Source: Phytoactinopolyspora limicola (GTDB taxonomy: Bacteria > Actinomycetota > Actinomycetes > Jiangellales > Jiangellaceae). From it: DNA of 64,000 bases. A model generated the notes under the pieces. The model had not been told where the DNA came from. It ran no database searches and saw only the letters and a list, made by a program, of their open reading frames with translations. Location: contig NZ_JAAOEN010000009.1 of NCBI RefSeq assembly GCF_011320225.1, positions 1-64,000 on the forward strand, given 5' to 3'. The position numbers and the translations under genes are program-made. Shown in pieces: positions 7,067 through 64,000 of the stretch (its first letter is position 1; every line of letters starts with the position of its first letter).

Positions 7067-7077
7067 GAGCATCCATC

Positions 7078-8954: not shown

Positions 8955-8955
8955 C

Positions 8956-11070: not shown

Positions 11071-13721
11071 GTGCTCCCCGCGGACGCGGGGATGATCCTT
11101 AGTTGAATTAGCTGCTGACTACTATCAAGACGTGCTCCCCGCGGACGCGGGGATGATCCGCTCGCGAAGATCCTCGAAGACTCGAAGGTGTCGTGCTCCC
11201 CGCGGACGCGGGGATGATCCCAACCAAGGGGCAACGCGAAGCCTCTGGGCCTCGTGCTCCCCGCGGACGCGGGGATGATCCTTTTCTTCGGCATTTTATC
11301 GGGTGTGTTTTGGCGTGCTCCCCGCGGACGCGGGGATGATCCCCTCTCCCGCTCGACCCCAGAAACGAACACGCCGTGCTCCCCGCGGACGCGGGGATGA
11401 TCCTGGATCGCTGGCCCGACGTCCAGGTGGACAGCCGTGCTCCCCGCGGACGCGGGGATGATCCGGTCACGGCGATGAACATCGTCCGCGCCACCCAGTG
11501 CTCCCCGCGGACGCGGGGATGATCCGACCGCGCGGTGCTGCGCAACCTCTACAAGGTCGTGCTCCCCGCGGACGCGGGGATGATCCGGAGACGCGCCGTG
11601 ACTGACATCCAACTCTTCAGTGCTCCCCGCGGACGCGGGGATGATCCCACGTCACCACAATGAGCCCATGCTATCTGACAGTGCTCCCCGCGGACGCGGG
11701 GATGATCCGTGGGACCTGCCGTTCCGCGAGGCGGTCGCGACGTGCTCCCCGCGGACGCGGGGATGATCCCGACACTGCACCGTCGACCAACGCCGCCATC
11801 TCGTGCTCCCCGCGGACGCGGGGATGATCCTGTGTTTGTGCCGAGTCCGTTTTGCGGCTTCATGTGCTCCCCGCGGACGCGGGGATGATCCGCGGTGCAG
11901 CGAGTTCTTGTCGGCCGCCGTGGCGTGCTCCCCGCGGACGCGGGGATGATCCGGAGGGCCCGATGGCGGAGTGGATCACGGTCTACGTGCTCCCCGCGGA
12001 CGCGGGGATGATCCCGTACCCAATCCCCGTACAACAGGTCGGGGTCGGTGCTCCCCGCGGACGCGGGGATGATCCCCGGGCATTGTGCGCCACGCGCTTG
12101 CCGAAGCAGTGCTCCCCGCGGACGCGGGGATGATCCGCGGCGGCGAGTGAGACACGGAATTTGAACTGAGTGCTCCCCGCGGACGCGGGGATGATCCTTC
12201 GGCACACCGCCAGAAGCGTTGACTCCTACCGTGCTCCCCGCGGACGCGGGGATGATCCCTCGCGGCACAGCTTCACGGCGAAGTTGAGAACGTGCTCCCC
12301 GCGGACGCGGGGATGATCCGTCGCCATGAATACAGAAGGGTTGTTTGAATAAGTGCTCCCCGCGGACGCGGGGATGATCCGCACATAGCCCGGTGGAACC
12401 CTGCCCGTGGTGCGTGCTCCCCGCGGACGCGGGGATGATCCTAGTCCCCTCCAGGGGGTTGTGGAGCCTGGCCAGTGCTCCCCGCGGACGCGGGGATGAT
12501 CCGAATATGTCGAGCGGCTCGATCCGCTCGGAAGCGTGCTCCCCGCGGACGCGGGGATGATCCACGCCGCCCATCACCAACGAGCAGGCCGAGGCTGTGC
12601 TCCCCGCGGACGCGGGGATGATCCTAGCCACTGAGATGGAGGCCAGCATTAACGCCCGTGCTCCCCGCGGACGCGGGGATGATCCATCTGGACTCTGGCC
12701 GTCGCTGGGCACAGGTGAGTGCTCCCCGCGGACGCGGGGATGATCCCTCGGATTACAGTTTCTGATGACGAAGCCTCCGGTGCTCCCCGCGGACGCGGGG
12801 ATGATCCGGTTAACAAGATCAACGCCATTCCATCTAATGAGTGCTCCCCGCGGACGCGGGGATGATCCCTTCTCGAACACGCCGGGGACGGTCTCGATGC
12901 CGTGCTCCCCGCGGACGCGGGGATGATCCTCAACCAACCGAAAGGGAGAGCACCATGACCATGTGCTCCCCACGGACGCGGGGATGATCCGGTCCGCGAT
13001 CGCGTGATCGTCATTACCGGATGGTGCTCCCCGCGGACGCGGGGATGATCCGATCCGTGAGTGGACCTACGCCGCCATGGCGGCGTGCTCCCCGCGGACG
13101 CGGGGATGATCCCCACCACGCCCTGGTCATGCGGAACAACTCGAGCGTGCTCCCCGCGGACGCGGGGATGATCCCTCCTCCACCCACACGTCCCGGCCGA
13201 AAACGGGGTGCTCCCCGCGGACGCGGGGATGATCCCTCCTCCACCCACACGTCCCGGCCGAAAACGGGGTGCTCCCCGCGGACGCGGGGATGATCCTAAC
13301 GATATCCGCTGCCGCATTTCCCCATGGCTGTGCTCCCCGCGGACGCGGGGATGATCCGACACACCCCCGCACTGCCGCCACCGCTCGCGGGTGCTCCCCG
13401 CGGACGCGGGGATGATCCCAGCGTCCGGGCGGATCCGTCAGGCAGCTCCACGTGCTCCCCGCGGACGCGCGGATGATCCTGTAAGCCAGAGCTTACATAT
13501 GGTGCTACTGGTGCTCCCCGCGGACGCGGGGATGATCCTGCAGGTGCGGGCCAGTTGAGTTCCCGGTCGAAGTGCTCCCCGCGGACGCGGGGATGATCCC
13601 CTAGGCCGCGTCTCCCTCTACCTCTATGCGGTGTGCTCCCCGCGGACGCGGGGATGATCCGGGCAACGACACTAACAAGTTGTGGCATTAACAGTTCTCC
13701 CCGCGGACACGGGGATAACCC
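11071..13721 (+). CRISPR. Type I-E CRISPR array, 44 repeats and 43 spacers
   Basis: A 28-nt repeat begins GTGCTCCCCG, has the palindromic core CCCCGCGGACGCGGGG and ends ATGATCC. It recurs at a 61-nt period from 11071 to 13694. Most spacers are 33 nt; those after 11925 and 13085 are 34 nt and that after 13452 is 31 nt. Repeat variants: a G-to-A change at 12963-12990, a G-to-C change in the repeat at 13452, and a clearly degenerate last repeat (13694-13721, beginning GTTCTCC and ending ATAACCC). This fixes the polarity with the leader at the cas2 side. The spacers at 13175-13207 and 13236-13268 are identical. Confidence 0.99.
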
Positions 13722-50163: not shown

Positions 50164-50238
<75 letters not shown>

Positions 50239-50245
50239 GTTCTGA

Positions 50246-50279
50246 AATTGCCTCGCTGGCACAGGTCAGCGGGGCAATT
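50246..50279. terminator. Hairpin between tRNA-Pro and integrase stop
   Basis: AATTGCCTCGCTG (50246-50258) pairs with CAGCGGGGCAATT (50267-50279) with one T-G pair. It ends at the integrase stop codon, so it can serve both the tRNA and the convergent integrase. Confidence 0.7.
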
Positions 50280-51499
50280 CACATCTCTGGGGTCTCACTC
50301 TTGATCAGTCGCAGCCCTGGCTGTTGGGGACCAGATGGGGACCACCAAGTAGAGAACGCGTCGCCTGCAGCGGCTAGTGCTCGATGGTCGGGATGTAGAT
50401 AGCGCGATGTCACGGCAGGATCTCGGTGGCCAGCGACGCGTTGCAGGATATGGAGATCAATGCCCGCATCTGCCATCCAGGTCAGCGCCGTGTGCCGAAG
50501 GCCGTGACGTACGAGTGCCGGGTAGCCGAGTTCAGTGACCACGGTGTCCCAGTCGGTGGCGTCGCGCAGGGTTGCTGTGGTGATGGTGCCACCCCGAGGT
50601 CCGTGCACGAGGCGGTCTTCGGCGGTGCGGCCTCGTGTCAGCCGTTCGAGGGTCGGGACTAACGGCGTGATGATGGGTACTTGCCTTCGTCTGCGGCCTT
50701 TGGTCGGTTTGGTCACTAACCCACCACGGCCGGGATAGGTTTGGCGTTCAATGTTGATGAGCATTTGTTTCCAGTCGATATCGCCGACGCGTAGTCCCGC
50801 AATTTCGCTGATCCTTGCTGCGGTGGTGGCCAGCAAGGTCGCCGTGTCGCCCCAGCTTTGGTGGTGACCTTTTTCGATGAGGGCCGCGACAAGCCGGTCA
50901 AGATCGGTCGTGTCGCGCAGTGCGAGATCGCGTGGATTGGGCGGTTCACTGTCATGCTGCGCCGATCTGCCGACGTTCGTCCGTCGGGCCCGATCCTTGG
51001 CGGGGTTTCGATCGATCAGTCCGTCGCGTACTGCTTGATCGAGTACAAGCACGAGAGGGGCGATGGAGTTCTTCACTGTGGAGCGACCGTGTTGCTGTTC
51101 CCATTCATCGATGGCGCGATCAACGAGCCCGGCGGTGATCATGGCGACCGGCAGGTGTCCAAGCGTCGGCATCACACGCAGCCGCAAACCTGCCGAATAC
51201 GGGTCATAGGTTGACGTTGAGTCGATCCCACGTGCCCACCGGTCACCGATGCTCTCCACGTAATCTGAGAGGCTTTGACCCGGATCAATTCCCGTTGTTG
51301 CTGTACGGCGCATGCGCTCGATCCAAGCCGCGGCGTCGCCCCGTGTCTCGTGCACACGCTTCGTGCCGTCGCGTCTGCCGCTCACCGGATCAGTCCAACG
51401 CACCCTCGCTTTGAAGACCGTTCCCTCGACCCGCGTGACCTCTTCGACATCGACTGTAAGTCGCACCCCCAGCGGGGGCAGCTTTTCCGAACGTGCCAT
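50279..51499 (-). CDS. int: Tyrosine site-specific integrase
   Basis: A 406-aa phage/ICE-type integrase. ATG 51499 (MARSEKLPPLGV) is chosen because the frame upstream overlaps the excisionase-like ORF. The AP2-like start is KARVRWTDPVSGRRDGTKRVHETRG, and the SAM-like domain is LSDYVESIGDRWA. Catalytic residues: Arg in ATTAARISEIAGLRVG, Lys region TKPTKGRRRRQVPI, HGLRHTALTWMADAG, GHRDPAVTSRYLHPD with Tyr nucleophile. It sits beside attL as expected. Confidence 0.94.
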   Translation of the reverse strand: MARSEKLPPLGVRLTVDVEEVTRVEGTVFKARVRWTDPVSGRRDGTKRVHETRGDAAAWIERMRRTATTGIDPGQSLSDYVESIGDRWARGIDSTSTYDPYSAGLRLRVMPTLGHLPVAMITAGLVDRAIDEWEQQHGRSTVKNSIAPLVLVLDQAVRDGLIDRNPAKDRARRTNVGRSAQHDSEPPNPRDLALRDTTDLDRLVAALIEKGHHQSWGDTATLLATTAARISEIAGLRVGDIDWKQMLINIERQTYPGRGGLVTKPTKGRRRRQVPIITPLVPTLERLTRGRTAEDRLVHGPRGGTITTATLRDATDWDTVVTELGYPALVRHGLRHTALTWMADAGIDLHILQRVAGHRDPAVTSRYLHPDHRALAAAGDAFSTWWSPSGPQQPGLRLIKSETPEM

Positions 51500-51669
51500 C
51501 ACACCGCCCGACCCGACAGGTTCTCGGCGATCCACGTTTCGAGGCCATCGGCGGGGTAGCGGTAGACGCTGCCGATCTTGAGGTACCGCGGCCCGACACC
51601 GTCGAGCCGCCAACGCCTCATCGGACAGACCCAGCGACGGGATTGCACCGACGGAAAACAGATACTCAC
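51499..51669 (-). CDS. Excisionase-like small DNA-binding ORF, possibly N-terminally broken
   Basis: 56 aa from GTG 51669, or 40 aa from ATG 51621. The C-terminal part MRRWRLDGVGPRYLKIG followed by VYRYPADGLETWIAEN matches the end of MerR/AlpA-type excisionases. The N-terminal half of the HTH is not visible in this frame, while another frame has EALAARR, so a frameshift is possible. Its stop overlaps the integrase ATG by 1 nt, the usual xis-int coupling. Confidence 0.6.
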   Translation of the reverse strand: MSICFPSVQSRRWVCPMRRWRLDGVGPRYLKIGSVYRYPADGLETWIAENLSGRAV

Positions 51670-52235
51670 CCCCGACAGGGTCTGGTGTTGAAGCGTGGGC
51701 CCGGCCGTTTAACGCGGCGCCTGTGAGGCGACTGATGCGCTGATTTATGCTGTGCCGCGTAGACGCTGCCATGGATCAGCGAGATGATTTGCGCCAAGCA
51801 CCCCTGATCGGTGTGCACTGCTGTGCGTCCAGCCGATAGTGAGGTGGAGCAGCAAGGCGGTTAAGGAACCTCGCGGTATGATCGGGAACAGGTAGATTGG
51901 CTGTCTATCTCGCGTGCATCGGTAACTTCCGGTGCCTTTCCTGAGAGGTATTTGCGGGGCACGATGCAGCTAGTGGTAGTGCTGCACGTCGACGAAAAGC
52001 GCGTCTGGTGTGCCGGGTCGGACACAGCGGGAGCGGCCAATTCCAGGTCACGCAGCAATCCGAAGGCAATATTGAACGCGGTAACCGCCGTCTTGCTGAA
52101 TAACAGTCCGGACGCAACGTCTCCCCGATCGAAACTCGATCGGGGAGACGCTCCAACGACATCAGTCGTTGGCGAAGTGAACGATAAACCGCGATGCCCT
52201 GTTAGCCGGTCAGCGCGCCCGCAAGGAGTTGCTCA
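51670..52235. other. 566-bp intergenic region inside the element
   Basis: No gene can be supported. Short frames on both strands lack family resemblance and RBSs. It contains the perfect hairpin at 52118-52150. The rest may be decayed element genes between the integration module and cargo. Confidence 0.5.
52118..52150. terminator. Perfect 15-bp hairpin in the element
   Basis: CGTCTCCCCGATCGA, loop AAC, and the exact complement TCGATCGGGGAGACG. It is strong and lies 86 bp downstream of the minus-strand lipoprotein stop, so it can terminate the cargo transcript. No T-run follows on the minus strand. Confidence 0.6.
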
Positions 52236-52682
52236 TCAAGCGTGCCGGTCAACCGTACCAGCGAAGAAATAGTCCTCGGTCAAGCACTCATGGTCCGGGT
52301 ACTCTGCGTTGAGGTGCCCCGGCTCCATGTAGCCGCCGCCTAGCACGACTGACTCGCCAACCGTCAGCTTTAGACCGGCGACGTCCACGGTCCTGTTGCT
52401 CGAGTTCCAGGTTGCAGACGGGAAAACTACGGTCCAAGACTGGGCTCCTGCATCTGATGAGATGACTCGGAGACATCCATCTTCCAGAGCAAGAGTCCCG
52501 ATGAGTTCGGCCCCGAGCGAGTCGGTGCTGGAAGGTTTATAGGTGAGTAGTGGCCCGTCAGCCTCGACTTCAATCGTATCCTCGCCTGAATCTCGATCTG
52601 GCTCGCCTGTTGGTGCAGTGCCACTGCAGCCTGCAAGTAGAAGGAATAAGATTCCTGTCGAAACTGCGTAGCGGAGTTGCAT
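52236..52682 (-). CDS. Putative lipoprotein
   Basis: A 148-aa protein with a type II signal peptide: MQLRYAVSTGILFLLLAGCSG (lipobox LLAGC, acylated Cys19). The mature part is acidic, then a beta-rich sequence with Cys pairs (EDGCLRVIS ... PDHECLTED). It resembles small secreted actinobacterial proteins of unknown role. It follows the protease gene on the same strand, 37 nt away, so both are probably co-expressed cargo; an accessory or inhibitor role for the protease is only a guess. Confidence 0.75.
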   Translation of the reverse strand: MQLRYAVSTGILFLLLAGCSGTAPTGEPDRDSGEDTIEVEADGPLLTYKPSSTDSLGAELIGTLALEDGCLRVISSDAGAQSWTVVFPSATWNSSNRTVDVAGLKLTVGESVVLGGGYMEPGHLNAEYPDHECLTEDYFFAGTVDRHA

Positions 52683-52719
52683 GGATACTCACTAAAGGTA
52701 GTTGCGGTTTGTGCGCTAG

Positions 52720-53964
52720 TTACATCAGTAGGCTAATGCCCAAGTTGAATGCATACTGAATCGGCATGTGAAACATGAAGTTGCAGTTACTGGCTGAGGT
52801 TCCTGAGCTTGACTGTCCTTTGTATATGCCATAAGCCGAACCGCCTAGCGCTACGGGACCGCCGCTGTCGCCTCGATAACAGCGCAGTTGTGAGCCGGCT
52901 GTGCGAACATACGTGTTGCTGCATGGCCCGTTGCAAATATTATTTCCCGGCGCATAGCTTGTATGATTGACCGTGCCGCAGCTATATCGGGTGGCCTTGC
53001 CCCGGTGGCAAACGTATTTGCCACCTTGGTTGCCGCGCATTGTGTACCCTGTTAGTGAAGTCGGGGTGCTGGTGCTGCTCATAAAGAATGAAGGAAAGAC
53101 GGTCCTTCCGGATATCGAATGCCATTGCACGTCCGCATAGCCGTTGAATAGCTCCGAGCGAAACGTCGTGCTATGCCAGGTACTTGATCCGAAGAGTTGA
53201 TAGGATTGACTTCTCGAACAGTGTCCTGCTGTTAGGAAGCCGCGGGTTCCAGCAGGGTTTCGCACAGTAAATCCACTTGTGCAGGAGGTCAGGCTCAGCC
53301 CTCCACGGTTCCCGTTTTCCGTCGGATCTGCATAACTTTCTATGGCTGTGGGGAGGCCCGTCTTCCGTGAGATGTCGTTCACCGAGGATTCGTGATCAAG
53401 AGTTCGCGGGCCGCTGTACTCGAGTATTAGTGTCTCGATCGTCTCATCGTAGTATATTCCATCTAAGTCTGGATGGGATTCGAATATGTCTGGAAGCATT
53501 GTTGCGAGATCGCGATTCACGTCGTCAGCTCTTCGGTGGTACCCATGTACCGTTCCGATCTTAATCGGCGAATCAACGATGATTTCGTCTGGAACATCGA
53601 TTTCGTTGTTGCCGGTGAATCGAGCTACGAGTGCTATGTCGTCCTCGCTGTGCTCTAATCGAATGCTCACGAGCCTTTCTGGGGCCAGGGCCGCTAGTTT
53701 GTTCCACGTATCGTCTGCTGCCTCTTGTGCTTGGAGGCGGCGCAGGGCTTCGGTTACCGAAACATCATAGTCGGAAGCATACGATTCTGCGGCTGCGTGC
53801 AGGTCGTTATATTCATGTGTCGGCGCATGGGTGATTTCCGAATTGGGCACTTCATTTGTCTCGCCGTTTGCTGAAGTAAGAGCAACTGATGAGATGATTG
53901 TCGAACACAATACCGCAGAGACTGCGACAGTTTTTCCCACCATGTTTTGGTATCGCCCCTCCAT
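52720..53964 (-). CDS. Secreted S1-family (chymotrypsin-like) serine protease with prodomain
   Basis: A 414-aa protein; ATG 53964 has GAGG 6 nt upstream, ATG 53943 is the alternative. Signal peptide (MVGKTVAVSAVLCSTIISSVALTSA-type) from about 8 to 33. A prodomain about 45-215 resembles the pro-regions of bacterial S1 proteases (LATMLPDIFESHPDLDGIYYD, TLILEYSGPRTL). The catalytic triad is intact: His248 in FLTAGHCS, Asp278 in GYADVQWH, Ser367 in RGDSGGPVA. Four or more Cys suggest disulfides. Its base composition is distinctly lower in GC than neighbours, indicating transfer. Confidence 0.92.
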   Translation of the reverse strand: MEGRYQNMVGKTVAVSAVLCSTIISSVALTSANGETNEVPNSEITHAPTHEYNDLHAAAESYASDYDVSVTEALRRLQAQEAADDTWNKLAALAPERLVSIRLEHSEDDIALVARFTGNNEIDVPDEIIVDSPIKIGTVHGYHRRADDVNRDLATMLPDIFESHPDLDGIYYDETIETLILEYSGPRTLDHESSVNDISRKTGLPTAIESYADPTENGNRGGLSLTSCTSGFTVRNPAGTRGFLTAGHCSRSQSYQLFGSSTWHSTTFRSELFNGYADVQWHSISGRTVFPSFFMSSTSTPTSLTGYTMRGNQGGKYVCHRGKATRYSCGTVNHTSYAPGNNICNGPCSNTYVRTAGSQLRCYRGDSGGPVALGGSAYGIYKGQSSSGTSASNCNFMFHMPIQYAFNLGISLLM

Positions 53965-54075
53965 GTCGGACCTCGTGTCCGACCCCTATGGGGGATAGTA
54001 CGGTCTGTTAACAAATCTAGTCAAGTGATTTCGGAAGAATTTATCCCGTCTCGCAGCCTAGAACCGAGTGTTCGA

Positions 54076-55775
54076 CCTGAGTTCCACAACTTTAGTACCC
54101 GGGGTCGATGCCGAGGGCTGTGAGGATGTGCGTGGCGGTGTCGCTGGTCTGGGGTGTTGCGGTGATCTTGTGTCCGTTGATGTTGATGGTGACATCGCGT
54201 AGTGGTCGGAGCGTTTGTATGATCTTGTTCAGGCTCAGGCCGGTGGCTGATTGCATGTAGCGCGCGATGGCTAGTGCGGTGAACACGATGGTCAGGTGCG
54301 CTTCGATGGCGTCTCTGACGCGGTGAAAGATCGGCCGGGCGCGCAGGTCACTTTTCGACATTCTGAACGATTGTTCGACGTGCCAGAGCTGGTGGTAGGA
54401 GGAGACCACTTCGGCGGCGGGCATGATGCTGGCTTCAATGTTGGTGCAGTATCCCTTCCAGCCGACGAGTTCCATCGCCCGGTCGTAGGTGGCCTGGTCG
54501 AACTCCCTGTCTTTGTTCGTCTCCTTGACGAAGCGGGCCTTCTTCGGTTTGGTCTGCCCATCGATGATCGCGATCGCCCGGTTGCGTTGCTTGTTCAGCG
54601 TCGATTGATCCTTCAGGGCCCGTTTGCGGCGGTACTGCCACACCGCTCGCCATTGGTCCGGGTGCTCGTGCGGGTCCCAGACCGGCTCGGCCCGTGTCAT
54701 CGTCCGTTTCGCATCTGGGCGGCCGTGACGCATCGTGACCGTATCCACGGTCTGCCCGTCGTCGTGGTGGGTGCCGTGCCAGCGGAAATGCTTGGCCAAG
54801 TCCTGGGGTGCCTTGGTCGCCTTGGACCCGACGATGAACCGCATACCCGCGTCATCGAGAGCCTGAAGGTTGTCGGCCGAGAGCATCCCGGCATCAGCGA
54901 CGACGACCATGTCAGCAATGTTGTGGCGTTGCTGGAACTCCTTCACCACGGGCACGATCGTGTGGGTCTCGGCCGTATTGCCCTGGTAGGAATGGATCTC
55001 TAGCGGAAACCCCGACCGGTCCACCAGGAGCCCCACAATGATCTGCGGATCGACCCGGCGTTGCTTGGAGTAGCCCACCTTGCGGTACTCGTCCTCGTGC
55101 TCAGCCTCGAAATGCAACGAGGTGACGTCGTACAAGCACAACGCCAGGCCACTCGTAGCCGCACTATGGGCGAAGCAGGCCTTGGCCACCTGGCCCCGGT
55201 AGTCACGGTCCCTGGCACGTTTGAGCGCGTTGAGCAGCGTGTTGTGATGCGCAGCGTCCAACCCGAGCTCGTCCAGCACCCGGATGCTGTCGAGTTTCGA
55301 CGTCGGCTCCACCAGCCGAGCCAGCACCAGCTGGTAGAACACCTCATCACCGATCGCGTCAGTGAACCCGAGCCGGGCGTACGCGGTCCGGATCGTCTCG
55401 GTCAACATCCGGCTGGCCATCGACTCGACCACAGCAGACGCCGCGCCAGCGGTCACAGCCTCCAAGCCAAGATCCAAAGTGCCCTGACCAGGGTTGAGCC
55501 GAGCAAGCTCGTCATGGGCAACGAGGAGCAGCGCAGCTAGCTCTGCCTCGGTGTGAGCCGAACCGATGTGCTTGTGGATCTCGGTCCTGCCCCTCACCTT
55601 CTCCGCTATCTGCACCGCCGTCGCCCCGGACGCAGTCCTCACTCGACGGATATAGGGACGCACCAGCCCACCATAACCACCCCGATTAGTACCCCGTTCC
55701 CGGACGCCACAACTCCCTCACCAGCACAAACACCCGACACAACCCCCAACTAAACGATCAGTTGTGGAACTCAGG
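54076..55775. mobile_element. IS1634-family insertion sequence, complete
   Basis: Bounded by a 16-bp inverted repeat: CCTGAGTTCCACAACT (54076-54091) and its complement (55760-55775). It contains one transposase gene. No convincing target duplication could be seen. It inserted at the 5' side of the abiEii gene, removing that gene's start and probably the neighbouring antitoxin. Confidence 0.88.
54092..55663 (-). CDS. IS1634-family transposase
   Basis: A 523-aa DDE transposase, full length. It starts MRPYIRRVRTASGATAVQIA and has LCLYDVTSLHFEAE (first Asp), VGLLVDRSGFPLEIHSYQGNTAE, DMVVVADAGMLSADNLQAL (second Asp), and the late Y-x2-W-HVEQSFRMSK segment (Glu) typical of IS4-like families. The gene appears intact and so could be active. 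Confidence 0.95.
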   Translation of the reverse strand: MRPYIRRVRTASGATAVQIAEKVRGRTEIHKHIGSAHTEAELAALLLVAHDELARLNPGQGTLDLGLEAVTAGAASAVVESMASRMLTETIRTAYARLGFTDAIGDEVFYQLVLARLVEPTSKLDSIRVLDELGLDAAHHNTLLNALKRARDRDYRGQVAKACFAHSAATSGLALCLYDVTSLHFEAEHEDEYRKVGYSKQRRVDPQIIVGLLVDRSGFPLEIHSYQGNTAETHTIVPVVKEFQQRHNIADMVVVADAGMLSADNLQALDDAGMRFIVGSKATKAPQDLAKHFRWHGTHHDDGQTVDTVTMRHGRPDAKRTMTRAEPVWDPHEHPDQWRAVWQYRRKRALKDQSTLNKQRNRAIAIIDGQTKPKKARFVKETNKDREFDQATYDRAMELVGWKGYCTNIEASIMPAAEVVSSYHQLWHVEQSFRMSKSDLRARPIFHRVRDAIEAHLTIVFTALAIARYMQSATGLSLNKIIQTLRPLRDVTININGHKITATPQTSDTATHILTALGIDPGY

Positions 55776-56470
55776 GGCGTTCCGCCGTGCTCTGGAGGAT
55801 CGCCTGAAGGTCCGCGCTGGTGGGGACGGTGCGCGTGTCACGAGGGGCCGCAAGCGTGTGGTGTTCGACCGGTTCTTGGCTCGTCTTGTCGAGGTGGCGG
55901 CTGGGGAGTGGGTGCTCAAGGGAGGGCTCGCGCTCGATTTGCGACTGGCGGACCGTGCGCGCTCGACCAAGGATATCGATCTGGCGTGGCGGGGAGACGA
56001 GGACGAGTTGCTCGACGTTCTCATCGACGCAGCCGTCTACGATCAGGGTGACTTTTTCACGTTCGCCGTGGAGCGAACCGGCGATCCCGATCGCGGTGCA
56101 GGCGGCGGAGAAGCTGCACGCCTACAGCCGTACCTATGAGGGTGGGCGGGTCAGCAGCCGCGCCAAGGACCTTGTCGATCTCGCGCTGATCGCCCACTTG
56201 TTTACCCTCGATGCTGACCAGCTGCGGCGAGCGATCGAGGACGAGTTCGCCGCGCGTGCAACCCACAAAAAGCCACAGCACTTGCCGCCATCCCCTGAGC
56301 AATGGCGGGAGCCGTTTGGTCAACTGGCGGCGGCTGTCGGGCTCGATCGTGACCTCGATGTTGGCCGCGGTGCCGCAGCGGCGATGTTCGACCCGATCCT
56401 CAAGCATCAGATCCAGGCTGGCACATGGAGCCCAGAGACGCAGCAATGGACCAACATCACGACCAGCTGA
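55776..56470 (+). pseudogene. abiEii: abiEii-like nucleotidyltransferase toxin, disrupted
   Basis: A type IV toxin-antitoxin toxin-like gene in two frames. Frame 1 (to about 56075) has RKRVVFDRFLARLVEVAAG, WVLKGGLALDLRLADRARSTKDIDLAW, the GG-x-nucleotidyltransferase motif with DIDL. Frame 2 then continues at AIPIAVQAAEKLHAYSRTYEG, RAKDLVDLALIAHLF. The middle of the family (about 50-60 residues) is missing and the frame changes, and the N-terminus is cut by the IS. No abiEi antitoxin remains. Certainly inactive if the family length is right. Confidence 0.8.
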
Positions 56471-56845
56471 CGCTGCTTGTGCCAAATGCGGGCTCAAGTT
56501 GCCGCCAGTATCGAATGGGACGATGCATCGCCACAGGTCAGGTCACCGGTGTCGCGCATGCGGGGACAGCGCCCTGTCAAGGTGCTGGTTTGGAGCTCAT
56601 GGTGGCGGCGTGAAGCCGGACTGACAGGGGGATTGGCATCGGGGGGAGTGCCGACTCGTCAGCGTCGGAACGAGGGTGTGAACTCGCCCATCGTTTTCCC
56701 ATCGAATTCGACAGGAAACGATCCACAACGACCCGAAACGACCGGTTATCCTATTCATCATTGGAGTCAGCCGATTCCGATAAAACATGAGGTGACTCGT
56801 GGTTTTCCGAGACGACCGGAAATGTCGCCGCGCCGGCGGCGTACT
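56471..56845. other. 375-bp right arm of the element, no gene
   Basis: No supported gene on either strand. The part around 56690-56800 is lower in GC and includes AT-rich words such as GATAAAACATGAGG. It may hold the integrase arm-binding sites next to attR. Confidence 0.5.
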
Positions 56846-56881
56846 TCAAGGGGTCGCAGGTTCAAATCCTGTCAGCCCGAC
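56846..56881 (+). other. attR core (36-bp copy of tRNA-Pro 3' end)
   Basis: Identical to 50203-50238. Upstream bases do not restore a tRNA (no acceptor 5' half or D arm), so this is only the att repeat. Confidence 0.93.
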
Positions 56882-57299
56882 CGTGTGATGTCTCAGGACA
56901 TCGAGGACAGCCGGACCTACGATCTTGTAGGTCCGGTTTTCTGTGTTTTGGGTTGTGGGCCTGGGGGCGGCCGGTGCCCAGGACCTGCTCGACGACGGCG
57001 GCCGGGGTGGCGGCAGGTGAGGTCTTGGGGCGTCGGGAGCGGGGGGTGAACGCGGCCTCGCCGTCTGCTCGGTAGATCGCGACGCCGAACAGCAGGTTGT
57101 ACACGGCGATGTACTCACCAGAAGTGACATCCACGCGGGTAGTGGTGTCGAACAGTCCCCAGAGTCCCTCGAACATCCACGCGGCGGCATTCCCGACGGC
57201 GTTGGCCACCCATTCTAACGGTGCGCTGACCAGCGTCGCGGCGGCTTCGCCGGCGATGTTGCACACGGTCGAGATCACGGGAACGTCGCAGACCGCCAT
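56862..57299 (-). pseudogene. Truncated conjugal-transfer membrane protein
   Basis: ATG 57299 starts MAVCDVPVISTVCNIAGEAA followed by LWGLFDTTTRVDVTSGEYIAVYNLLFGVAI. This matches the N-terminus of the large transfer-associated membrane protein of actinobacterial conjugative elements. The expected hydrophobic helices after about residue 75 are absent; the frame instead runs on through unrelated Arg/Pro-rich sequence to a stop inside attR. So only about 57075-57299 is native. Confidence 0.65.
56911..56945 (+). terminator. Intrinsic terminator right of attR
   Basis: CCGGACCTAC, loop GATCTT, GTAGGTCCGG, then TTTTCTGTGTTTT: a textbook rho-independent terminator 30 bp beyond the tRNA-end repeat. 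It is presumably the original tRNA-Pro terminator, now 6.7 kb away from the functional tRNA because of the insertion. Confidence 0.85.
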
Positions 57300-57348
57300 G
57301 ACGGCTCCTCCAGGCATCAGGGTTTGGTAGGCACGGGCGACGTGTGGG

Positions 57349-57681
57349 CTACACGCTCTGGCCGACACCCCAGAAGAAGTTGATCAGCGCCACCGACGCG
57401 CCGCAGATGATCGCGGCGCCGCACGAGACGAGCACCCCAGTCTTTCCCCGTCCGGAGAGGTGGGGATTCGACGAGTTCGACCCGAAGCCCCATACGATCG
57501 CGCTGACGATGAGCGCCAGAACGGACAGGATCAACCCGATCGTCATGACCGCACCGACGATCCGCCGCAACGCCCGGATACCCGGCAGCCCGCGTTCATT
57601 CGGGGTGATGTTGATCTGGGTCGGCGTCGCGTCGGCGATGGAAGTGAGTACCTCGACTGCGGCGTTGAGGGGTTCCAACAT
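57349..57681 (-). CDS. DUF6112-family small membrane protein
   Basis: 110 aa from ATG 57681. Two hydrophobic helices, AVMTIGLILSVLALIVSAIVWGFGS and TGVLVSCGAAIICGASVALINFF, with a loop carrying SGRGKTG. This is the pattern of DUF6112 proteins in actinobacterial integrative conjugative elements, which lie just before the transfer membrane protein, as here. It is part of an element remnant. Confidence 0.75.
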   Translation of the reverse strand: MLEPLNAAVEVLTSIADATPTQINITPNERGLPGIRALRRIVGAVMTIGLILSVLALIVSAIVWGFGSNSSNPHLSGRGKTGVLVSCGAAIICGASVALINFFWGVGQSV

Positions 57682-57776
57682 GATCAATGACGTTCCTTCG
57701 CACCTAGGTGGAAGACGGACTCGTCGTACAGGTGCGCCCACGTTGCCCACCCAGCGGAGGGCGACGCTTGCCAGGA

Positions 57777-57912
57777 CTAGATCGTTGAGCCGAGGTCGAT
57801 CAGGAAGTTCGTCCACCCAACCGCGGCACCAGCCAAGACGGCAGCGCCAAGAGATACCCACACGCCCGCCCTCGCCCGGGCTACGGACTGAACCGCGTCG
57901 CCATCTTGGGGA
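57777..57912 (-). pseudogene. C-terminal fragment of a second DUF6112-like protein
   Basis: The frame ending at 57777 reads DAVQSVARARAGVWVSLGAA, then VLAGAAVGWTNFLIDLGSTI, equal to the second helix and C-terminus of DUF6112 proteins. The first helix is missing and an in-frame stop precedes it. Together with the next gene it gives the tandem DUF6112 arrangement of such elements. Confidence 0.6.
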
Positions 57913-57973
57913 GGTCATTCTCCCGTACGAGCCCGTAGGGCTCCGGCGGTAGAGGTGTACAAGTCTGCCTTGT

Positions 57974-58072
57974 TTGTCGGGCGAAGGTAACTCACGTTGT
58001 CGGGTAACACTGGATCGTGTTGTCGGGTCAAAAGGGCTCTCATTGTCGGGTAAGATCAGCTCATGTTGTCGG
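57974..58072 (+). repeat. Five TTGTCGG motifs at an exact 23-bp period (iteron-like)
   Basis: TTGTCGG starts at 57974, 57997, 58020, 58043 and 58066, spaced exactly 23 bp. Four of the five are followed by G or GT (TTGTCGGGT in three). The bases between are only weakly alike. Regular spacing near two helical turns suggests a protein binding series such as plasmid/ICE iterons or multiple terminal sites of an insertion sequence. Confidence 0.75.
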
Positions 58073-58099
58073 ATGGCCATGTTGATCGCCGCCTCCTGA

Positions 58100-58830
58100 C
58101 CGTGGTCTCTGGCACTGGAGGAGCAGCCGGCGGTTGCCGTGACGGGGCCGCGGACATCGGGGAAGAGCACTCTAGCCCGTAAGATCGTCGATGGTCTGGG
58201 TGGCACGTTGCTTGACCTAGATGATCCAGCGGTGCGCGCCCTAGCCGAGGATGACCCTTCTGCGTTGTGGGCGACCTCGCTGAGCTCGTCGTGGTTGAAG
58301 AGTTCCAGCGTGTGCCGCCGGTGCTGTCCGCAATCAAAGCCGAGCTGAACGTCGACCGTCGGCCGGGTCGGTACGTCCTAACAGGTTCGGCGCGACATCA
58401 AGTAGTGCCGGAGCTCGCCGACTACCTCACCGGGAGAATCGAGCTGCTGACCTTGTGGCCCTTCGCGATGGCAGAGCTCGAGCCTGGAGCAGCATCGATT
58501 GTCGACCGGCTGTTCGATGGATCATTGACCATGCAGCGTCGTGCCACTGCCATCGATCGCAAGGCTCTCGTCGATCTTGTCCTGCGTGGTGGTTGCCCGA
58601 TCGCTGTCACGCTGGGGCCGCCTGCGCGGGGACGGTGGTCGCGTAACCTGGTCGACCTTGTCGCCGAGGGCAGGAGTCGACGCCGGGTCGACTCTGCGCC
58701 CCGAGATCCTGCGGAACTTCCTGCAGCTCAGTGCTGCCAGAACCGCCCAGATACTCAACGTCGCCGAACTCGGTCGAGATGTGGGATTGGAGCGTGACCA
58801 GGCCGGCGAGATGCCGAGTTGTCGCATGGA
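58100..58830 (+). pseudogene. AAA-type ATPase (DUF4143-like), frameshifted
   Basis: Three frames carry consecutive parts of one protein: AVAVTGPRTSGKSTLARKIV with Walker A (58112-58270), then ELVVVEEFQRVPPVLSAIKAEL and YVLTGSARHQVVPELADYLTGR with WPFAMAELEPG (58270-58660), then LRPEILRNFLQLSAARTAQ, ILNVAELGRDVGLE (about 58690-58800). No single frame covers it and the C-terminal domain is absent, so it is a decayed gene. Confidence 0.75.
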
Positions 58831-58845
58831 ATCGCCGGTTTGGTG

Positions 58846-59100
58846 TCAGCCAAGCCATTGGATGAGCAGCAGGTGGACTTCTTGTTGTTCCTCATGGATG
58901 AGGTAGATGATCTGGCCGGCGTGGTCGGGGCCGAAGGGCCACCACCTCACTGCGCCGTCGGGGTTAGCGTCATGCTGGGGACGGCCGTTCCATGGTGTGA
59001 GCTGAAGGACGTCGAGGATCTCAGCGTAGGCAGCCAGTGCTTCGTTGGGGAGTTCGGCGAGTTGGTCGAGTACGGCTGCGTCCGGGATGAGGCGGTACAT
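58846..59100 (-). CDS. RelE-like toxin of a type II-like pair
   Basis: 84 aa: MYRLIPDAAVLDQLAELPNE at the start, a middle LQLTPWNGRPQHDANPDGAVRWW and an end GQIIYLIHEEQQEVHLLLIQWLG. The pattern of strands and basic/aromatic residues is that of small RelE-type actinobacterial proteins. Its ATG directly abuts the stop of the upstream partner (59101), as in TA operons where the antitoxin comes first. Activity not demonstrable. Confidence 0.65.
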   Translation of the reverse strand: MYRLIPDAAVLDQLAELPNEALAAYAEILDVLQLTPWNGRPQHDANPDGAVRWWPFGPDHAGQIIYLIHEEQQEVHLLLIQWLG

Positions 59101-59436
59101 CTAGGAACTCAAGCGTTGCCGGATGAGTTCGTGCATCTGCTCTGCGGGCACGGCATCGGGGTTGTGGCCGCTGTGGGTGATCTGTTCGGCCTTGGCCAGC
59201 ACACGGAAGTACGAGCCCGGATCTGTGGTCTCGGTGTAAGCGATGTGCTGCCACTTGCGGAGAAACTCATGCACGCCGGTGAGGTCTTTAGATTGCTTGG
59301 CCCGTTCCAGGACGATGTCCCATTCGGTGTCGAACTCGACGGCGACTCGCCAGCTTAGGCGTGCCCGGATAGCTACCGGGTCGGCGGCCGGTGGTGCTGG
59401 GTGATCGCCGCGGAGTGGCTCGGCTGGCGTGGTCAT
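59101..59436 (-). CDS. DUF6247-like putative antitoxin
   Basis: 111 aa. After a Pro-rich start, PVAIRARLSWRVAVEFDTEWDIVLERAKQS and LTGVHEFLRKWQHIAY match DUF6247 proteins, which precede small RelE-like genes. Its stop touches the next ATG without gap, indicating one transcript. The role as antitoxin is inferred from arrangement. Confidence 0.65.
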   Translation of the reverse strand: MTTPAEPLRGDHPAPPAADPVAIRARLSWRVAVEFDTEWDIVLERAKQSKDLTGVHEFLRKWQHIAYTETTDPGSYFRVLAKAEQITHSGHNPDAVPAEQMHELIRQRLSS

Positions 59437-59547
59437 ATTCCCACGATAGCCCAGCCGGACGTTCTTCTCGCTTGATCTGGGGGTGCTGCACGGATGGGTG
59501 ACATCTGATTTGGCTTGCCTGTGAGGGCGGTCTAGAAGGATGTCGTT

Positions 59548-59770
59548 GTGCCCAAGCCTTATCCGAGCGAGTTTCGTGACGACGTAGTGCGTGCTGCGCA
59601 GCCGCGAGCCTGGAGTGACGATCGGGCAGATCGCCCGTGACTTCGGTGTTCATCTGATGACGCTGGAGAAGGGGCTGTGGCTTGCCGGTGTCGAGCACGG
59701 CGTCAAGCCCGGCCAGACGCGCAGCGCAGATTGTGTGGTACGCATGCTAAGCCTGGTTCGGGAGCTGTGA
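59548..59770 (+). pseudogene. IS3-family OrfA remnant
   Basis: GTG 59548 begins PKPYPSEFRDDVVRAAQ (transposase HTH start). A one-base shift near 59600 leads to REPGVTIGQIARDFGVHLMTLEKGLW. The sequence then degenerates to a stop at 59770. No orfB follows. Frameshift and truncation mean it is inactive. Confidence 0.75.
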
Positions 59771-59779
59771 GGAGGCTCG

Positions 59780-60325
59780 TTGCAAAGAAGTAGCGGCTTC
59801 GTGGGCTGTTGGCTTGTTATCGCAGCGACAGCCTGTGGCTGCGGACTGTCGACCGGGCCGTCTGAAGGCGGTCCACTTCGGCTGGGTGAAGACTCTAGTC
59901 GCACCTGCATTCCGTCGGCGTCGGGGCAAATTGTGACCTTTGGCTACAACGTGCTGACCAATGAGTCGGATGCCGACATCGAGCTTCGAGCAGTGGAGAT
60001 CGACGATCCTGTCAATGTCGAGCTCGTCCACGCGCTCGTTACACCGACGGATATGGAGACGATTGGGGTGTGGGCGGAGTGGCCACCGCCGTACGGCGAG
60101 GACGACTTGATGTGGTCCGGGCGCGAAGAAGCTGCAGGCGCAACTATCGGGCCAGGCGAAGAACGAGGTTTGGTACTTGGCCTCGAGCCGACGACTGCGG
60201 ACGAGGTCGGCCGTTCATCGGCGATACGTGTAACCTACGTTGACGATCGAGGCCGCGAGTTCGTGGCTGTAGCAACGACCGGAATTCTCGTCGCGTCCGG
60301 GCGCGACACCTGTGCAGACCTCTGA
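59780..60325 (+). CDS. Putative secreted lipoprotein
   Basis: 181 aa from TTG 59780 (RBS GGAGG nearby). N-terminus SSGFVGCWLVIAATACGCGLS is a hydrophobic signal with a lipobox-like ATAC. The mature part is beta-rich, SGQIVTFGYNVLTNESDADIELRAVEI, with an end DTCADL that may pair with Cys in SRTCIPSA. It looks like a small immunoglobulin-like secreted protein. No known family can be named. Confidence 0.65.
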   Translation: MQRSSGFVGCWLVIAATACGCGLSTGPSEGGPLRLGEDSSRTCIPSASGQIVTFGYNVLTNESDADIELRAVEIDDPVNVELVHALVTPTDMETIGVWAEWPPPYGEDDLMWSGREEAAGATIGPGEERGLVLGLEPTTADEVGRSSAIRVTYVDDRGREFVAVATTGILVASGRDTCADL

Positions 60326-60436
60326 AGCACTGACCGGACTGTTCCGCAGTCGCCGAGGCCGAGTGTCGACGGCGCTTGTCCTTCGGTCCGGCCGGCCAGG
60401 CCTCGGGGATCGGCGGTATTCGGCTAGGGTTCGGTC

Positions 60437-61579
60437 GTGGCCTCGCCGTCGCCGAGCTTCGTCGGTATCGACTTGGCTTGGGGCCCCAGGGCACGGACAG
60501 GCATGGCCGTGGTGGACGATGCTGGCCGATTGGTTCATTCCGGTGCTGTCCGGACTAACGACGACATCGATGGGTGGCTGCGAACGTTCGCGAGCGGGGT
60601 CGTTGTCGCGGCGGTCGATGCGCCGTTGATCGTGCCGAACGAGACGGGACAGCGACGATGTGAGACGGAGATCTCTCGAGCGTTCTGGCGTTACAAGATC
60701 GGCGCGCACTCCTCCAATCGAAGCCGCGCCGAGTTCAATCCTCCGCGTGCGGCGACTCTCGCGGACCGATGTGGCTGGTTGGTGGACCCTGCCCAGCGTG
60801 GGAGTGTCAATGCGCCGGTGTGCATTGAGGTCTACCCGCATCCGGCGATGGTTGGACTGTTTGGTCTCGCCGAGCGGATCATCTACAAGTCGGGGCCCTC
60901 CCGGGCCGAAGGCTTCGCCCAGTTGGTGCGGCACTTCGCCTCGATCGGTGAGTTGTGTTTGAGTGAGCATCCACGATGGGCGGAACTGTCTCACATTGTC
61001 GCGGATCCGAAACCCGGCGACGTGACCCGCATTGAGGATGAGCTGGACGCTATCTTCTGCGCGCACTTGGCATGGCTCTGGCACCACCGCCCGGACAGCC
61101 TGCAGGTCTATGGCTCGCTCGAGGATGGCTACATCGTCGCGCCACCGCCACCGCTGACCATGCCGGAACCGCCGGCCGACGACGTTTCGGGGCAGGCGTC
61201 GCCCGTATCGACGGCCAAGACCGCCATTGCCGTTGATGTCGTTGGTCGGCCTACGGGTTTCGCGGCCGAAGACAATGAGCAGCGTTGGAAGGCTGCGGTG
61301 CGAACGGCGTGCGCGGGTAGGACCGTTTCGCGGTCGAGCCGGGGCGGTATCGATGTCGAGTATCGCCTTGATCCCAGCCAGGTCGGCGACAACGCACCAG
61401 ACCTCGACAATCTCCTCAAGGCGACGATCGACGCACTCGACGAGGTCCTCGGCCACCGGCCAGGGACGTTTGGCCGCCCGCAGGCCGATGACGATCGCGT
61501 CGATCGCATCGTGGCGTCCAAGCGAGTCGCCCGGCCAGGCGAGCCCCCGGGTGCCCGTCTGCTCATCTTTGAACTGTGA
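60437..61579 (+). CDS. DUF429 - RusA-like fusion protein
   Basis: 380 aa from GTG 60437. Residues about 8-240 are a DUF429 RNase-H-like domain: FVGIDLAWGPRARTGMAVVD (first Asp), VVAAVDAPLIVPNETGQRRCE, VCIEVYPHPAM, and TRIEDELDAIFCAHLAWLW. After a Pro-rich linker (about 240-260), residues 265-380 look like a RusA Holliday-junction resolvase: APDLDNLLKATIDALDEVLG (Asp322, Asp324, Lys328) and QADDDRVDRIVASKR (Asp351-353, Lys362). The RusA catalytic acidic residues and lysine are present. Role unknown; joined nuclease folds suggest nucleic-acid processing. Confidence 0.8.
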   Translation: MASPSPSFVGIDLAWGPRARTGMAVVDDAGRLVHSGAVRTNDDIDGWLRTFASGVVVAAVDAPLIVPNETGQRRCETEISRAFWRYKIGAHSSNRSRAEFNPPRAATLADRCGWLVDPAQRGSVNAPVCIEVYPHPAMVGLFGLAERIIYKSGPSRAEGFAQLVRHFASIGELCLSEHPRWAELSHIVADPKPGDVTRIEDELDAIFCAHLAWLWHHRPDSLQVYGSLEDGYIVAPPPPLTMPEPPADDVSGQASPVSTAKTAIAVDVVGRPTGFAAEDNEQRWKAAVRTACAGRTVSRSSRGGIDVEYRLDPSQVGDNAPDLDNLLKATIDALDEVLGHRPGTFGRPQADDDRVDRIVASKRVARPGEPPGARLLIFEL

Positions 61580-61613
61580 CGACGGCCGGCGGTCACCCGG
61601 ATCTGGATCGGCC

Positions 61614-63176
61614 TCACGGCTTCTCGAGTCCCCTGGGCACACCGATGAGATCGGTGCCGTCGGGCTGGCGGACAAACCGCAACGTGTGGACGCCGTGTCC
61701 ACTCAGCAGCAGGTCGTCGCCCTCGCGCCGGAGTGCTGCGGGACCGGCACGGAAGGTGTTGTCCGGGCCTGGTTCGAGCTGACCAGCGATCTCGAGGCCG
61801 AGGCGAAATCTCCCATCCGCGTGGATGATCGCGAGGATGCCGAGTTCAGCGTCGAGGTAGGTGCCAGTCGGTGCGGCGGCGGACGGATCCGGTGCTGCGC
61901 ACCGTTCGTACGTCATGTCGCGACCCGGCCTCATCCTGGTACTCACGCGCAGCAGGTCACCATCGAAGTGGAGCTGCAGGCCGTCGTCGGGGTCGTCGCC
62001 GTGCCAGCTGCCATCGGTCGCAAGCGTGAAGCGCCCCCTCTGGAGTCCAGACAGGGTCAGGGTTCCGTCGGCCTCGGCGGCGAGTTGCACCGAATGACCG
62101 GAATCGCGCATGATCCACCAGCCGTCAACGGCCTGCGCTGCTGTTGTGTCGTCGACACGGACGGGCGCGGGGGCGTCGGGGATCTCCGCGGCGATCCTGG
62201 CGACCTTCTGCGCGATCACGCCGGGATTCACGGCGGAGTTGTTCGAGAGGACGACGACGCCGAGATCGTGATCGGGGAAGTAGTAGAGCTGCGACCGGTA
62301 TCCGACGACTGCGCCAGCGTGGCCGATGACACGCTCGCTACCGAGGGCCGCATGATAGAGGCCATACGTGTACGGGCCGACGCTCCCGTCGGGGAACGTC
62401 GGATTGCCACCGAACAGGGCGTCACGGATGTCCTGGCCGAGAACGTCGCCGGTCCGCAGAAAGCGGAACCAAGGGCCCAGCTCGCTCACGCTGGTGGCGA
62501 GTCCGCCGTCACCGACCGCGCACTCCTCGCTGTCGGCTCTGCGGAAACCGTCGCCGACGCTCTCGTAGCCATATGCGAACTGTGGCAGTACCGCCCTGCT
62601 GTCCTCTCGGAACGCCGTGTGGCTCATCCCCAGCGGTGCGAAGATGCGCTCGGTGGCGAACTCGCCGAGAGTGCGTCCGGTGAGGCGATGTACCAGGGAG
62701 GCCACGAGCACGTAACCGGTGTTGGAGTAGCTGAATTCGGAGCCGGGAGCGAAGTTGAGGGTTTCCAGGCCCGAGATGAACGCGAGAGCCTGGTCCTGCG
62801 TGATCCTGGTGAGGGGTCGACCGGCGATCTCGGCCAGCGCTAGCCATTCCGGCAGCCCACCGGTGTGCAACAGGCACTGAGCGATGGTGACCGGCGTCGT
62901 CAGACGCAGCTCAGGCAGATGGGAGCGGATGTCGTCCCCGAGGTCGAGGAGCCCGTCGCGGGCGAGCAGCAGTACCGCGGTGGCGGTGAAGTGTTTGCTC
63001 GTCGACGCGATGTCGAAGCGCGTGTGCTCGTCGATCGGCACCCCGAATTCCACCGAGGCGAGCCCGGCAGCCGCGTGGCCGACCAGGGAGCCTCCTCGGT
63101 AGACGCCGACGGCGAGACCCGGACCGGTGGGGGCGGAGGAGCGAATGACGAGCTGAGCGATGGCGGTGCTGTCCAT
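61614..63176 (-). CDS. Serine hydrolase, beta-lactamase class C-type
   Basis: A 520-aa protein without a clear signal peptide. Active-site motifs: FDIASTSKHFTATAV (SxxK, Ser-x-x-Lys), EFSYSNTGYVLVA (YxN) and VIGHAGAVVGYRS (HAG in place of KTG, as in esterase/DD-peptidase-type members). The C-terminal 150 residues form a lipocalin-like beta domain (DGTLTLSGLQRGRFTLATDG). More likely an esterase or D-aminopeptidase than an antibiotic-resistance enzyme. Confidence 0.88.
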   Translation of the reverse strand: MDSTAIAQLVIRSSAPTGPGLAVGVYRGGSLVGHAAAGLASVEFGVPIDEHTRFDIASTSKHFTATAVLLLARDGLLDLGDDIRSHLPELRLTTPVTIAQCLLHTGGLPEWLALAEIAGRPLTRITQDQALAFISGLETLNFAPGSEFSYSNTGYVLVASLVHRLTGRTLGEFATERIFAPLGMSHTAFREDSRAVLPQFAYGYESVGDGFRRADSEECAVGDGGLATSVSELGPWFRFLRTGDVLGQDIRDALFGGNPTFPDGSVGPYTYGLYHAALGSERVIGHAGAVVGYRSQLYYFPDHDLGVVVLSNNSAVNPGVIAQKVARIAAEIPDAPAPVRVDDTTAAQAVDGWWIMRDSGHSVQLAAEADGTLTLSGLQRGRFTLATDGSWHGDDPDDGLQLHFDGDLLRVSTRMRPGRDMTYERCAAPDPSAAAPTGTYLDAELGILAIIHADGRFRLGLEIAGQLEPGPDNTFRAGPAALRREGDDLLLSGHGVHTLRFVRQPDGTDLIGVPRGLEKP

Positions 63177-63382
63177 GTCGGAAGTCTGCCGAACGGGAAC
63201 ACCTCCTGCCTCGTCGGGAGCGGCAAAGTGGGAGCGTCCGGTTTGGCCTCCGCGACACCTGGCGTCGGCCGCAGTGGTCGCTGAGCAAGGCGAGCCAGCC
63301 CCTTCAAGAGTGCTGATTCAGATGTCAGCCGGATGCTCCTGGCTGGTCGCTCGTACCCCGTTGCTCCCTCAGGACATCGTGA
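63177..63382. other. 206-bp gap between the serine hydrolase and the IS fragment
   Basis: No gene or clear terminator. Contains only short spurious frames. Confidence 0.5.
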
Positions 63383-64000
63383 TCACGGGCAGGTTTCGTG
63401 ACGCCGTGGGCTGCCGTCTGGGGTTGGCTGAGTGACGGTGGAGGGTTTTCGGTGTGACAGGGGAGGGTTCTCCTCGCTATAGAGCCTGTTGTTTTTTGGG
63501 AAGGGTGGCTGGTCGATGGTGTGGCGTTTGCCGTCGGCGATGAGCCGGTCGGGGCCCGCAGCGGTGAGGTTGTCATCGCAGTCGTAGCCGGCGTCGGCGA
63601 TGATGGTTCCCACCTGGCGCAGGTCCTCGCGGCCGGTGCGGTCGGCGAGGGCCTGAGCGGTGGCACTGACCTCGTTCATAGCCGGGATGAGCTGTTCGAC
63701 GTCGTTGGCGTCGGTGGTGGCGCGGACGGTGAAGATGGACCCGTCGTCGCTGTTGGTGATCTGGCAGTTGTAGCCCTGGATCCAGCCGTTGCGGGTCTTG
63801 AGCAGCCGCGAGTCGGGGTCGGTCAGGTTCGCCGTGTACCGCTCGCCGCTGGTGGTTTCGTCCGTGCTGGCGGCCTGGTTGTTGGTCGCTGCCGCGGCTT
63901 GGCCGGCCTCGTAGGCGGCGCGGGCTTTGCGCACGTGGCTGCGCTCATCCGGCGGGAGCGGGTCCGTGCCGGTGTAGGACCGTTGCGCGCGACGCGCCCG
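63383..64000 (-). CDS. IS1182-type transposase fragment, cut by the window and changed at its C-terminus
   Basis: The frame is open from the window edge to 63383. RYTANLTDPDSRLLKTRNGWIQGYNCQ and GYDCDDNLTAAGPDRLIADGKR (catalytic Asp) are IS1182-type transposase. After LIADGKR the usual C-terminus with the final Glu is missing and an unrelated Pro-rich end follows, so this copy is truncated. The N-terminal part is outside the window. Confidence 0.8.
   Translation of the reverse strand, partial: RARRAQRSYTGTDPLPPDERSHVRKARAAYEAGQAAAATNNQAASTDETTSGERYTANLTDPDSRLLKTRNGWIQGYNCQITNSDDGSIFTVRATTDANDVEQLIPAMNEVSATAQALADRTGREDLRQVGTIIADAGYDCDDNLTAAGPDRLIADGKRHTIDQPPFPKNNRLYSEENPPLSHRKPSTVTQPTPDGSPRRHETCP

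Follow-up and report, generated by a model that had tools for sequence, protein, structure and literature searches.

The window analysed here, a 64,000-nucleotide stretch of a Phytoactinopolyspora limicola contig (NZ_JAAOEN010000009.1, positions 1 to 64,000), contains a gene that joins a DUF429 domain to a RusA-like domain. A reading-frame check of the window found the ORF uninterrupted from its GTG at 60437 to the stop codon at 61577-61579, and its parts could be delimited as follows:

60437..61579, + strand: DUF429-RusA fusion gene, 380 aa, GTG start; full-length homologues at loci L003-L010, L012, L013 and L026
60449..61156, + strand: N-terminal DUF429 (RNase-H/RuvC-like) domain, residues 5-240; PF04250 and RuvC 6s16_A matches
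61157..61222, + strand: Pro-rich linker, residues 241-262; predicted disordered, pLDDT <50 at 243-260
61223..61576, + strand: C-terminal RusA-like domain, residues 263-380; fold match 1q8r_B, PF05866/phrog_140 in 12/12 fusions
61400..61438, + strand: RusA motif 1, DLDNLLKATIDAL, residues 322-334; from profile alignment to 1q8r and conservation
61487..61522, + strand: RusA motif 2, DDDRVDRIVASK, residues 351-362; D351, D352 and K362 invariant in 12/12 fusions

An AlphaFold2 model of the fusion, built on a 12-row alignment, had a mean pLDDT of 87.7 and a pTM of 0.65 and displayed two folded domains separated by a linker disordered at 243-260, as anticipated by a preliminary description of this DNA, which had proposed a Pro-rich linker between separately folding parts. 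A PDB search with the single fusion sequence returned 0 matches, and an NCBIfam search with the fusion protein returned 0 families. The surrounding region carries an integrated element and several associated genes:

50164-50238: tRNA-Pro(ggg), forming the element border
50203-56881: integrated element, ~6.7 kb; the 3' end of tRNA-Pro(ggg) is repeated exactly, over 36 bases, at 56846-56881
50279-51772: integrase (Phage_integrase, E 2.2e-21)
52720-53964: secreted trypsin-type protease-like gene (by reading), in a low-GC stretch (54%)
54092-55663: transposase-like ORF inside the tRNA-Pro element

This is the sole element in the region with mappable ends, and the fusion gene, which lies 3.6 kb beyond the repeat at 56846-56881, is not part of it. 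The region is as rich in mobile elements as first described, whilst the gene itself sits outside the only one that could be delimited. On the minus strand at 58846-59436, a pair of neighbouring short ORFs, 84 and 111 aa in length, looks toxin-antitoxin-like by eye.

The N-terminal domain was readily assigned: PF04250 (DUF429) matched residues 10-218 with an E value of 4.8e-18 (66.1 bits, cut-off 23). In a 106-row alignment of the domain (111 rows minus 5 taken for duplicates), D61 and E131 are present in 106/106 rows and D12, D201 and D204 in 105/106, the remaining row having a gap. The closest solved folds, as ranked by VIA, are Thermus thermophilus RuvC (6s16_A, Z 9.7), a poxvirus resolvase (6p7b, Z 9.7) and E. 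coli RuvC (1hjr, Z 9.6), followed by TEFM (Z 8.8). Identity to RuvC and the poxvirus resolvase is 7-18%, and a Z of 9.7 stands moderately above the aligner background; since a Z of 7-8 can be background with VIA, we treat the RuvC likeness as moderate evidence. Like RuvC and the poxvirus resolvase, the DUF429 domain has a D-x-x-D pair towards its end. The acids D12 and D61 are kept on strands 1 and 4, which together with the RuvC-type fold matches identifies an RNase-H-like fold, in agreement with Majorek et al., who place DUF429 in RNase-H-like clade D with resolvases and predict nuclease activity (PMC3985635). The "Asp-rich motif" first attributed to this domain is loose wording for spaced acidic residues of the RNase-H/RuvC fold, which are indeed present.

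Assignment of the C-terminal domain required more evidence. PF05866 matched the whole fusion protein at E 0.0064 (residues 306-338) and the excised C-terminal piece at E 6.5e-4; its 20.7 bits fall below the Pfam cut-off of 22.8, so that, judged strictly on this sequence alone, RusA could not be called. At a threshold of E <= 1, however, PF05866 was matched by all twelve fusion C-domains, the window's included (best E 3.1e-7), and the RusA-like profiles phrog_140 and phrog_34 were likewise matched by 12/12 (best E 5.6e-10), so the match in the window is not due to chance. Scored singly, five of 11 fusions exceeded the Pfam cut-off (L005, L007, L008, L010 and L012), the L013 domain having been scored within the 12-fusion tally only. 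A profile of the 12 C-domains found E. coli RusA in the PDB, weakly (E 0.014), and with the predicted structure as query E. coli RusA was the best Foldseek match (E 3.8e-4, prob 1.00); VIA aligned 102 residues to the 109 of 1q8r_B with a Z of 11.4 and an rmsd of 2.4.

The catalytic Asp triad of E. coli RusA is D70, D72 and D91. In the profile alignment to 1q8r, which covers motif 1 only, D322, D324 and K328 of the fusion align with the DLDNL-K--DAL stretch of E. coli RusA. Six residues (D322, D324, N325, D332, D351 and D352) are invariant in 12/12 fusions, and K328 is kept in 11/12, being Thr in L004; the catalytic-type Asp and Lys pattern of RusA resolvases is thus present. A role for E. coli RusA Lys76 is indicated by the title of a work cited in PMC3485210. 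The C-terminal motifs originally quoted, PDLDNLLKATIDALDEVLG and ADDDRVDRIVASKR, are found in the translation. Of the two outcomes named at the outset as grounds for rejecting the assignment, absence of a significant RusA match and disappearance of the Asp/Lys pattern among close relatives, neither occurred, the one departure being that single Lys. RusA proteins are almost always ~120 residues long, according to PMC3485210, which fits the initial characterisation of RusA as a small stand-alone phage protein and in which SPP1 G44P is a longer exception. Because the protein studied here has 380 aa and is fused, we refer to a RusA-like domain rather than to a RusA protein. Sequence and model together establish two folds with conserved putative active sites; as the N-domain resembles RuvC (Z 9.7) and the C-domain matches RusA, two unrelated resolvase folds seem to be joined in one modelled chain.

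Both domains of the fusion are under purifying selection. Across six homologue pairs, dN/dS ranged from 0.14 to 0.42 in the N-domain; in the C-domain the range was 0.10-0.42, with four of the six pairs at 0.10-0.16. The window-L007 comparison gave 0.22 (N) and 0.15 (C), with synonymous sites near saturation.

A search of 84,980 species genomes yielded 132 relatives, and the 80 best were carried forward. The search for the same fusion in other genomes, proposed as a check in the preliminary description, was successful: 11 of these best 80 of 132 carry the whole fusion, making 12 with the window. They fall into five genera:

Nocardioides: L003, L004, L006, L009
Geodermatophilus: L005
Georgenia: L010
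Serinicoccus: L007, L012, L013
Kineococcus: L008, L026

Two of these, L004 and L009, are paralogous fusions ~15 kb apart on contig_6 of Nocardioides sp. Root140. Near L009 are an ADP-ribosylglycohydrolase and a SIR2-like gene fragment (SIR2 by eye), neither matched by PADLOC. The host genome of the window has one match to the fusion protein, and its one RusA match is the fusion gene itself. It also has a normal RuvC gene, which rules out a role for the fusion as a RuvC substitute. Four further genomes from the same genus have no match to the RusA part. Other DUF429 proteins are present in 11 further genomes of the window's 22-genome family, none of which matches the fusion's subfamily profile at E 0.01; one genome of this family (G013), which has no DUF429 match, retains only a piece of 38 residues with 68% identity to the C-terminus of the window's fusion. 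In a class-wide sample, 7/393 genomes match the RusA part (E <= 0.001), and in two of these the match is strong. In a family inferred to be Nocardioidaceae, as the G515 fusion resembles L003, the fusion profile was matched in 82/197 genomes, mostly through the DUF429 part, and the RusA part in 4/197. From these sparse matches in genus, family and class samples, we conclude that the gene is a rare accessory that has probably moved horizontally. Carriage on plasmids was considered and rejected: among plasmid records, one matched the fusion protein, by its DUF429 part only, and one matched window DNA 57000-64000, over 3% of its length. A phage source of the C-domain was considered and set aside, the matches listed being all weak and none close: two records from Gordonia phages (E of 7e-3 and 8e-3) and at least six viral contigs (best E 5e-8).

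Combining the 80 relatives with the window's copy and 30 loci from the one-family search gave 111 DUF429 subfamily loci, some duplicates included, of which 66 have no long tail, 22 a RelA/SpoT tail, 13 a RusA tail and 10 others. By reading, the tail of L024 appears DinB-like and that of L031 P-loop phosphotransferase-like, and further tails occur in L062 and L016/L018. An N-domain tree was built from 95 sequences, leaving out 12 distant loci, 5 duplicates and, in one further selection, others by locus number. A single branch (SH-aLRT 99) separates the RelA/SpoT-type DUF429 domains from the rest, including the clade with the RusA fusions. On this tree the RusA label requires at least 8 changes, with gain and loss not separable by the tree. 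Occurrence of the RusA fusion is rare and patchy, with repeated gain or loss.

The window's nearest N-domain, that of L001 (Haloechinothrix), is 85% identical over 234 columns; here DUF429 is intact and the RusA domain absent, which argues that the RusA part is dispensable. An out-of-frame piece resembling the final 17 residues of the RusA domain is kept in L001 (E 0.023), and pieces resembling its first 16-23 residues are kept in L016 (E 3.5e-4) and L018 (E 0.015). These candidate scars are suggestive, because it is solely their position and place on the tree that raise them above the reverse-strand background (8.9e-4). The tails of Aeromicrobium L017 and L028 were also examined as dead RusA domains, aligning in register with the Asp absent (tblastn E 0.012 and 0.002); this reading was undone by the same reverse-strand background and an hhalign probability of 0.4%, and the tail model (pLDDT 62.5, low confidence) has IF3, not RusA, among its best, weak matches.

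Taking up to three genes per side at the 11 homologous loci (63 neighbours, the window's own left out), we found no conserved operon partner widely common between genera. Shared neighbours occur mostly within the close pairs L003-L004 and L012-L013, and those shared more broadly belong to individual families, GntR-type regulators for example. Where Pfam matched a neighbour, the family is mostly metabolic or regulatory, among the 25 listed of 56 families. Integrases account for 2/63 neighbours and a PADLOC model match for 1/63, this being PDC-M45B, itself a candidate, and a count without a baseline from DUF429-only loci. Adjoining element scars, pointed out in the preliminary description, are therefore a feature of the window and not of the fusion in general. 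The gene caller was crude: it called the window, L005 and L012 fusions too short and overlooked the DUF429 genes at L001 and L009.

The DUF429 domain of the fusion matches the PADLOC candidate PDC-S44 (E 4.9e-73), PDC standing for phage defence candidate (PMC11514479); the label extends equally to RelZ-type proteins and to DUF429 proteins that stand alone. The C-domain has three stand-alone relatives in the 197 genomes (G081, G492 and G455). The gene preceding the stand-alone one encodes a NucS-like PDC-S11 protein in G081 and an Mrr-type nuclease in G492, and two stand-alone genes adjoin restriction operons:

L113, 9325-9759: stand-alone RusA-like gene directly before hsdR, in a type I restriction-modification operon within 5858-13426
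L115, about 9092-9460: stand-alone RusA-like gene directly before hsdR, in a type I restriction-modification operon within 5611-12994

Both operons carry hsdM, and some kilobases off is a gene read as smpB. The third stand-alone relative lies, by eye, near a putative relaxase and an integrase. In a small, poorly resolved C-domain tree, two stand-alone relatives fall among the fused ones.

The system most comparable to the fusion is RelZ (MSMEG_5849, MS_RHII-RSD) of M. smegmatis, for which RNase HII activity, hydrolysis of RNA:DNA hybrids and R-loops, and UV induction are reported (PMC7591505, PMC4429107). Its discoverers' review describes the separate domains as inactive (PMC7591505). In both cases a single actinobacterial gene encodes a DUF429 N-domain, a linker that varies and another enzyme behind it; the RelZ partner is a (p)ppGpp synthetase, whereas that of the fusion is a predicted RusA-like DNA nuclease. 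As the fusion's tail is RusA-like and not RelA/SpoT, the protein is not RelZ-type and the analogy is one of working only; RelZ-type DUF429 forms its own tree group, the comparison being made through RelA/SpoT-fused homologues and the properties of RelZ itself taken from papers. On the C-terminal side, E. coli RusA (1q8r, 2h8c), the Holliday junction resolvase of the Rac prophage, shares the fold and the DLDN-K / DD motifs of the C-domain, but is a stand-alone protein of ~120 aa, with ~22% identity, and not tethered to an RNase-H-like domain. A further comparison is phage SPP1 G44P, a larger protein that ends in a RusA-like domain and cleaves junctions and D-loops (PMC3485210). As DUF429 partners, Majorek et al. 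name NUDIX and RelA/SpoT only (PMC3985635), to which an RSH survey adds phosphomethylpyrimidine kinase (PMC3153485). Within the open-access papers searched, subscription papers being outside our scope, we found no report of a DUF429-RusA fusion.

By analogy with RelZ for the N-domain and with the RusA-like G44P for the C-domain, we posit that the fusion may be a bifunctional structure-specific nuclease for R-loops and branched DNA, to which we assign a probability of roughly 0.5. The DUF429 domain would recognise R-loops or RNA:DNA hybrids and cut their RNA strand, as reported for RelZ, and the RusA-like domain, held on a flexible linker and probably dimeric, would cut four-way junctions, D-loops or regressed forks. 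Such branched substrates would arise at transcription-replication collisions, where R-loops and stalled forks coincide, and the protein would work as a lone gene without an operon partner, an optional accessory moving between actinobacteria. The RusA fold and motifs, the RuvC-like N-domain, purifying selection on both domains and the lack of a widely conserved neighbour count in favour of this proposal; the host's own RuvC, the sub-cut-off Pfam score, the Lys missing in L004 and the dispensable RusA part count against it. Activity also need not carry over to another partner, given that the isolated RNase domain of RelZ is reported to be inactive alone (PMC7591505). That the RuvC-like and RusA sites might act jointly on composite structures, for instance R-loop-blocked or regressed forks, is a tentative extension that we would lean against.

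The same architecture could instead serve as an anti-phage or anti-plasmid nuclease, attacking replication or recombination intermediates of the invader and travelling as a lone defence gene. The PDC-S44 match, the two stand-alone relatives directly before hsdR in two genomes, a horizontal spread in which the nearest N-domains are those of Haloechinothrix and Nocardioides, and the failure of every other DUF429 protein found in the window's 22-genome family to match the subfamily profile would all suit such a role. PDC-S44 is, however, a candidate label applied equally to RelZ-type and stand-alone DUF429 proteins, and the single PADLOC match among 63 mostly metabolic or regulatory neighbours (where Pfam-matched) is again to a candidate, and we regard this explanation as a live but rather unlikely alternative. 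Alternatively, the protein may be a DUF429 RNase whose RusA-like tail provides targeting or oligomerisation, by DNA binding or as a dimer, and is not a second active nuclease. A tail so patchy on the tree, the substitution in L004 of the Lys aligning to RusA Lys76, and the variety of tails taken by DUF429 in the 111 loci are consistent with this, but the invariant DxD and DD acids and the low C-domain dN/dS in four of six pairs suggest a kept active site, making a purely structural tail distinctly improbable. An artefact, be it read-through, mis-assembly or a spurious RusA-like motif, might be suspected from the GTG start, the RusA score below the Pfam cut-off and the lack of a detectable sigma-70-like promoter; set against the RusA fold match, codon constraint and the same fusion at 11 other loci, this is scarcely credible, the homologous fusions having already refuted it. 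Taken together, this analysis confirms the observation made in the preliminary description and partly supports its interpretation: the fusion, the identity of both domains and their separate folding are supported, whilst the suggested roles in processing recombination intermediates or in defence are inferred.

If the two sites did act jointly, RNA removal and branch cleavage would be combined in a self-contained enzyme for transcription-replication conflicts, or for attack on phage forks, and DUF429 would serve generally as an R-loop sensor whose effectors (an alarmone synthetase, RusA or others) can be swapped. DUF429 is widespread, and as far as we found activity has been reported for RelZ alone. 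A second recurring partner, likely a branched-DNA nuclease, suggests that DUF429 is a platform that recognises RNA:DNA or junction structures and to which different effectors can be attached; its action on R-loops, on junctions or on both can now be tested directly, and the defence candidate PDC-S44 gains a concrete biochemical hypothesis.

A scan for sigma-70-like promoters upstream of the fusion found nothing. By eye, a TAGGGT/TAGAGT hexamer lies 6-7 bases before the start codon in the window (60425-60439) and upstream of L003, a spacing that would suit a leaderless transcript with a -10 box.
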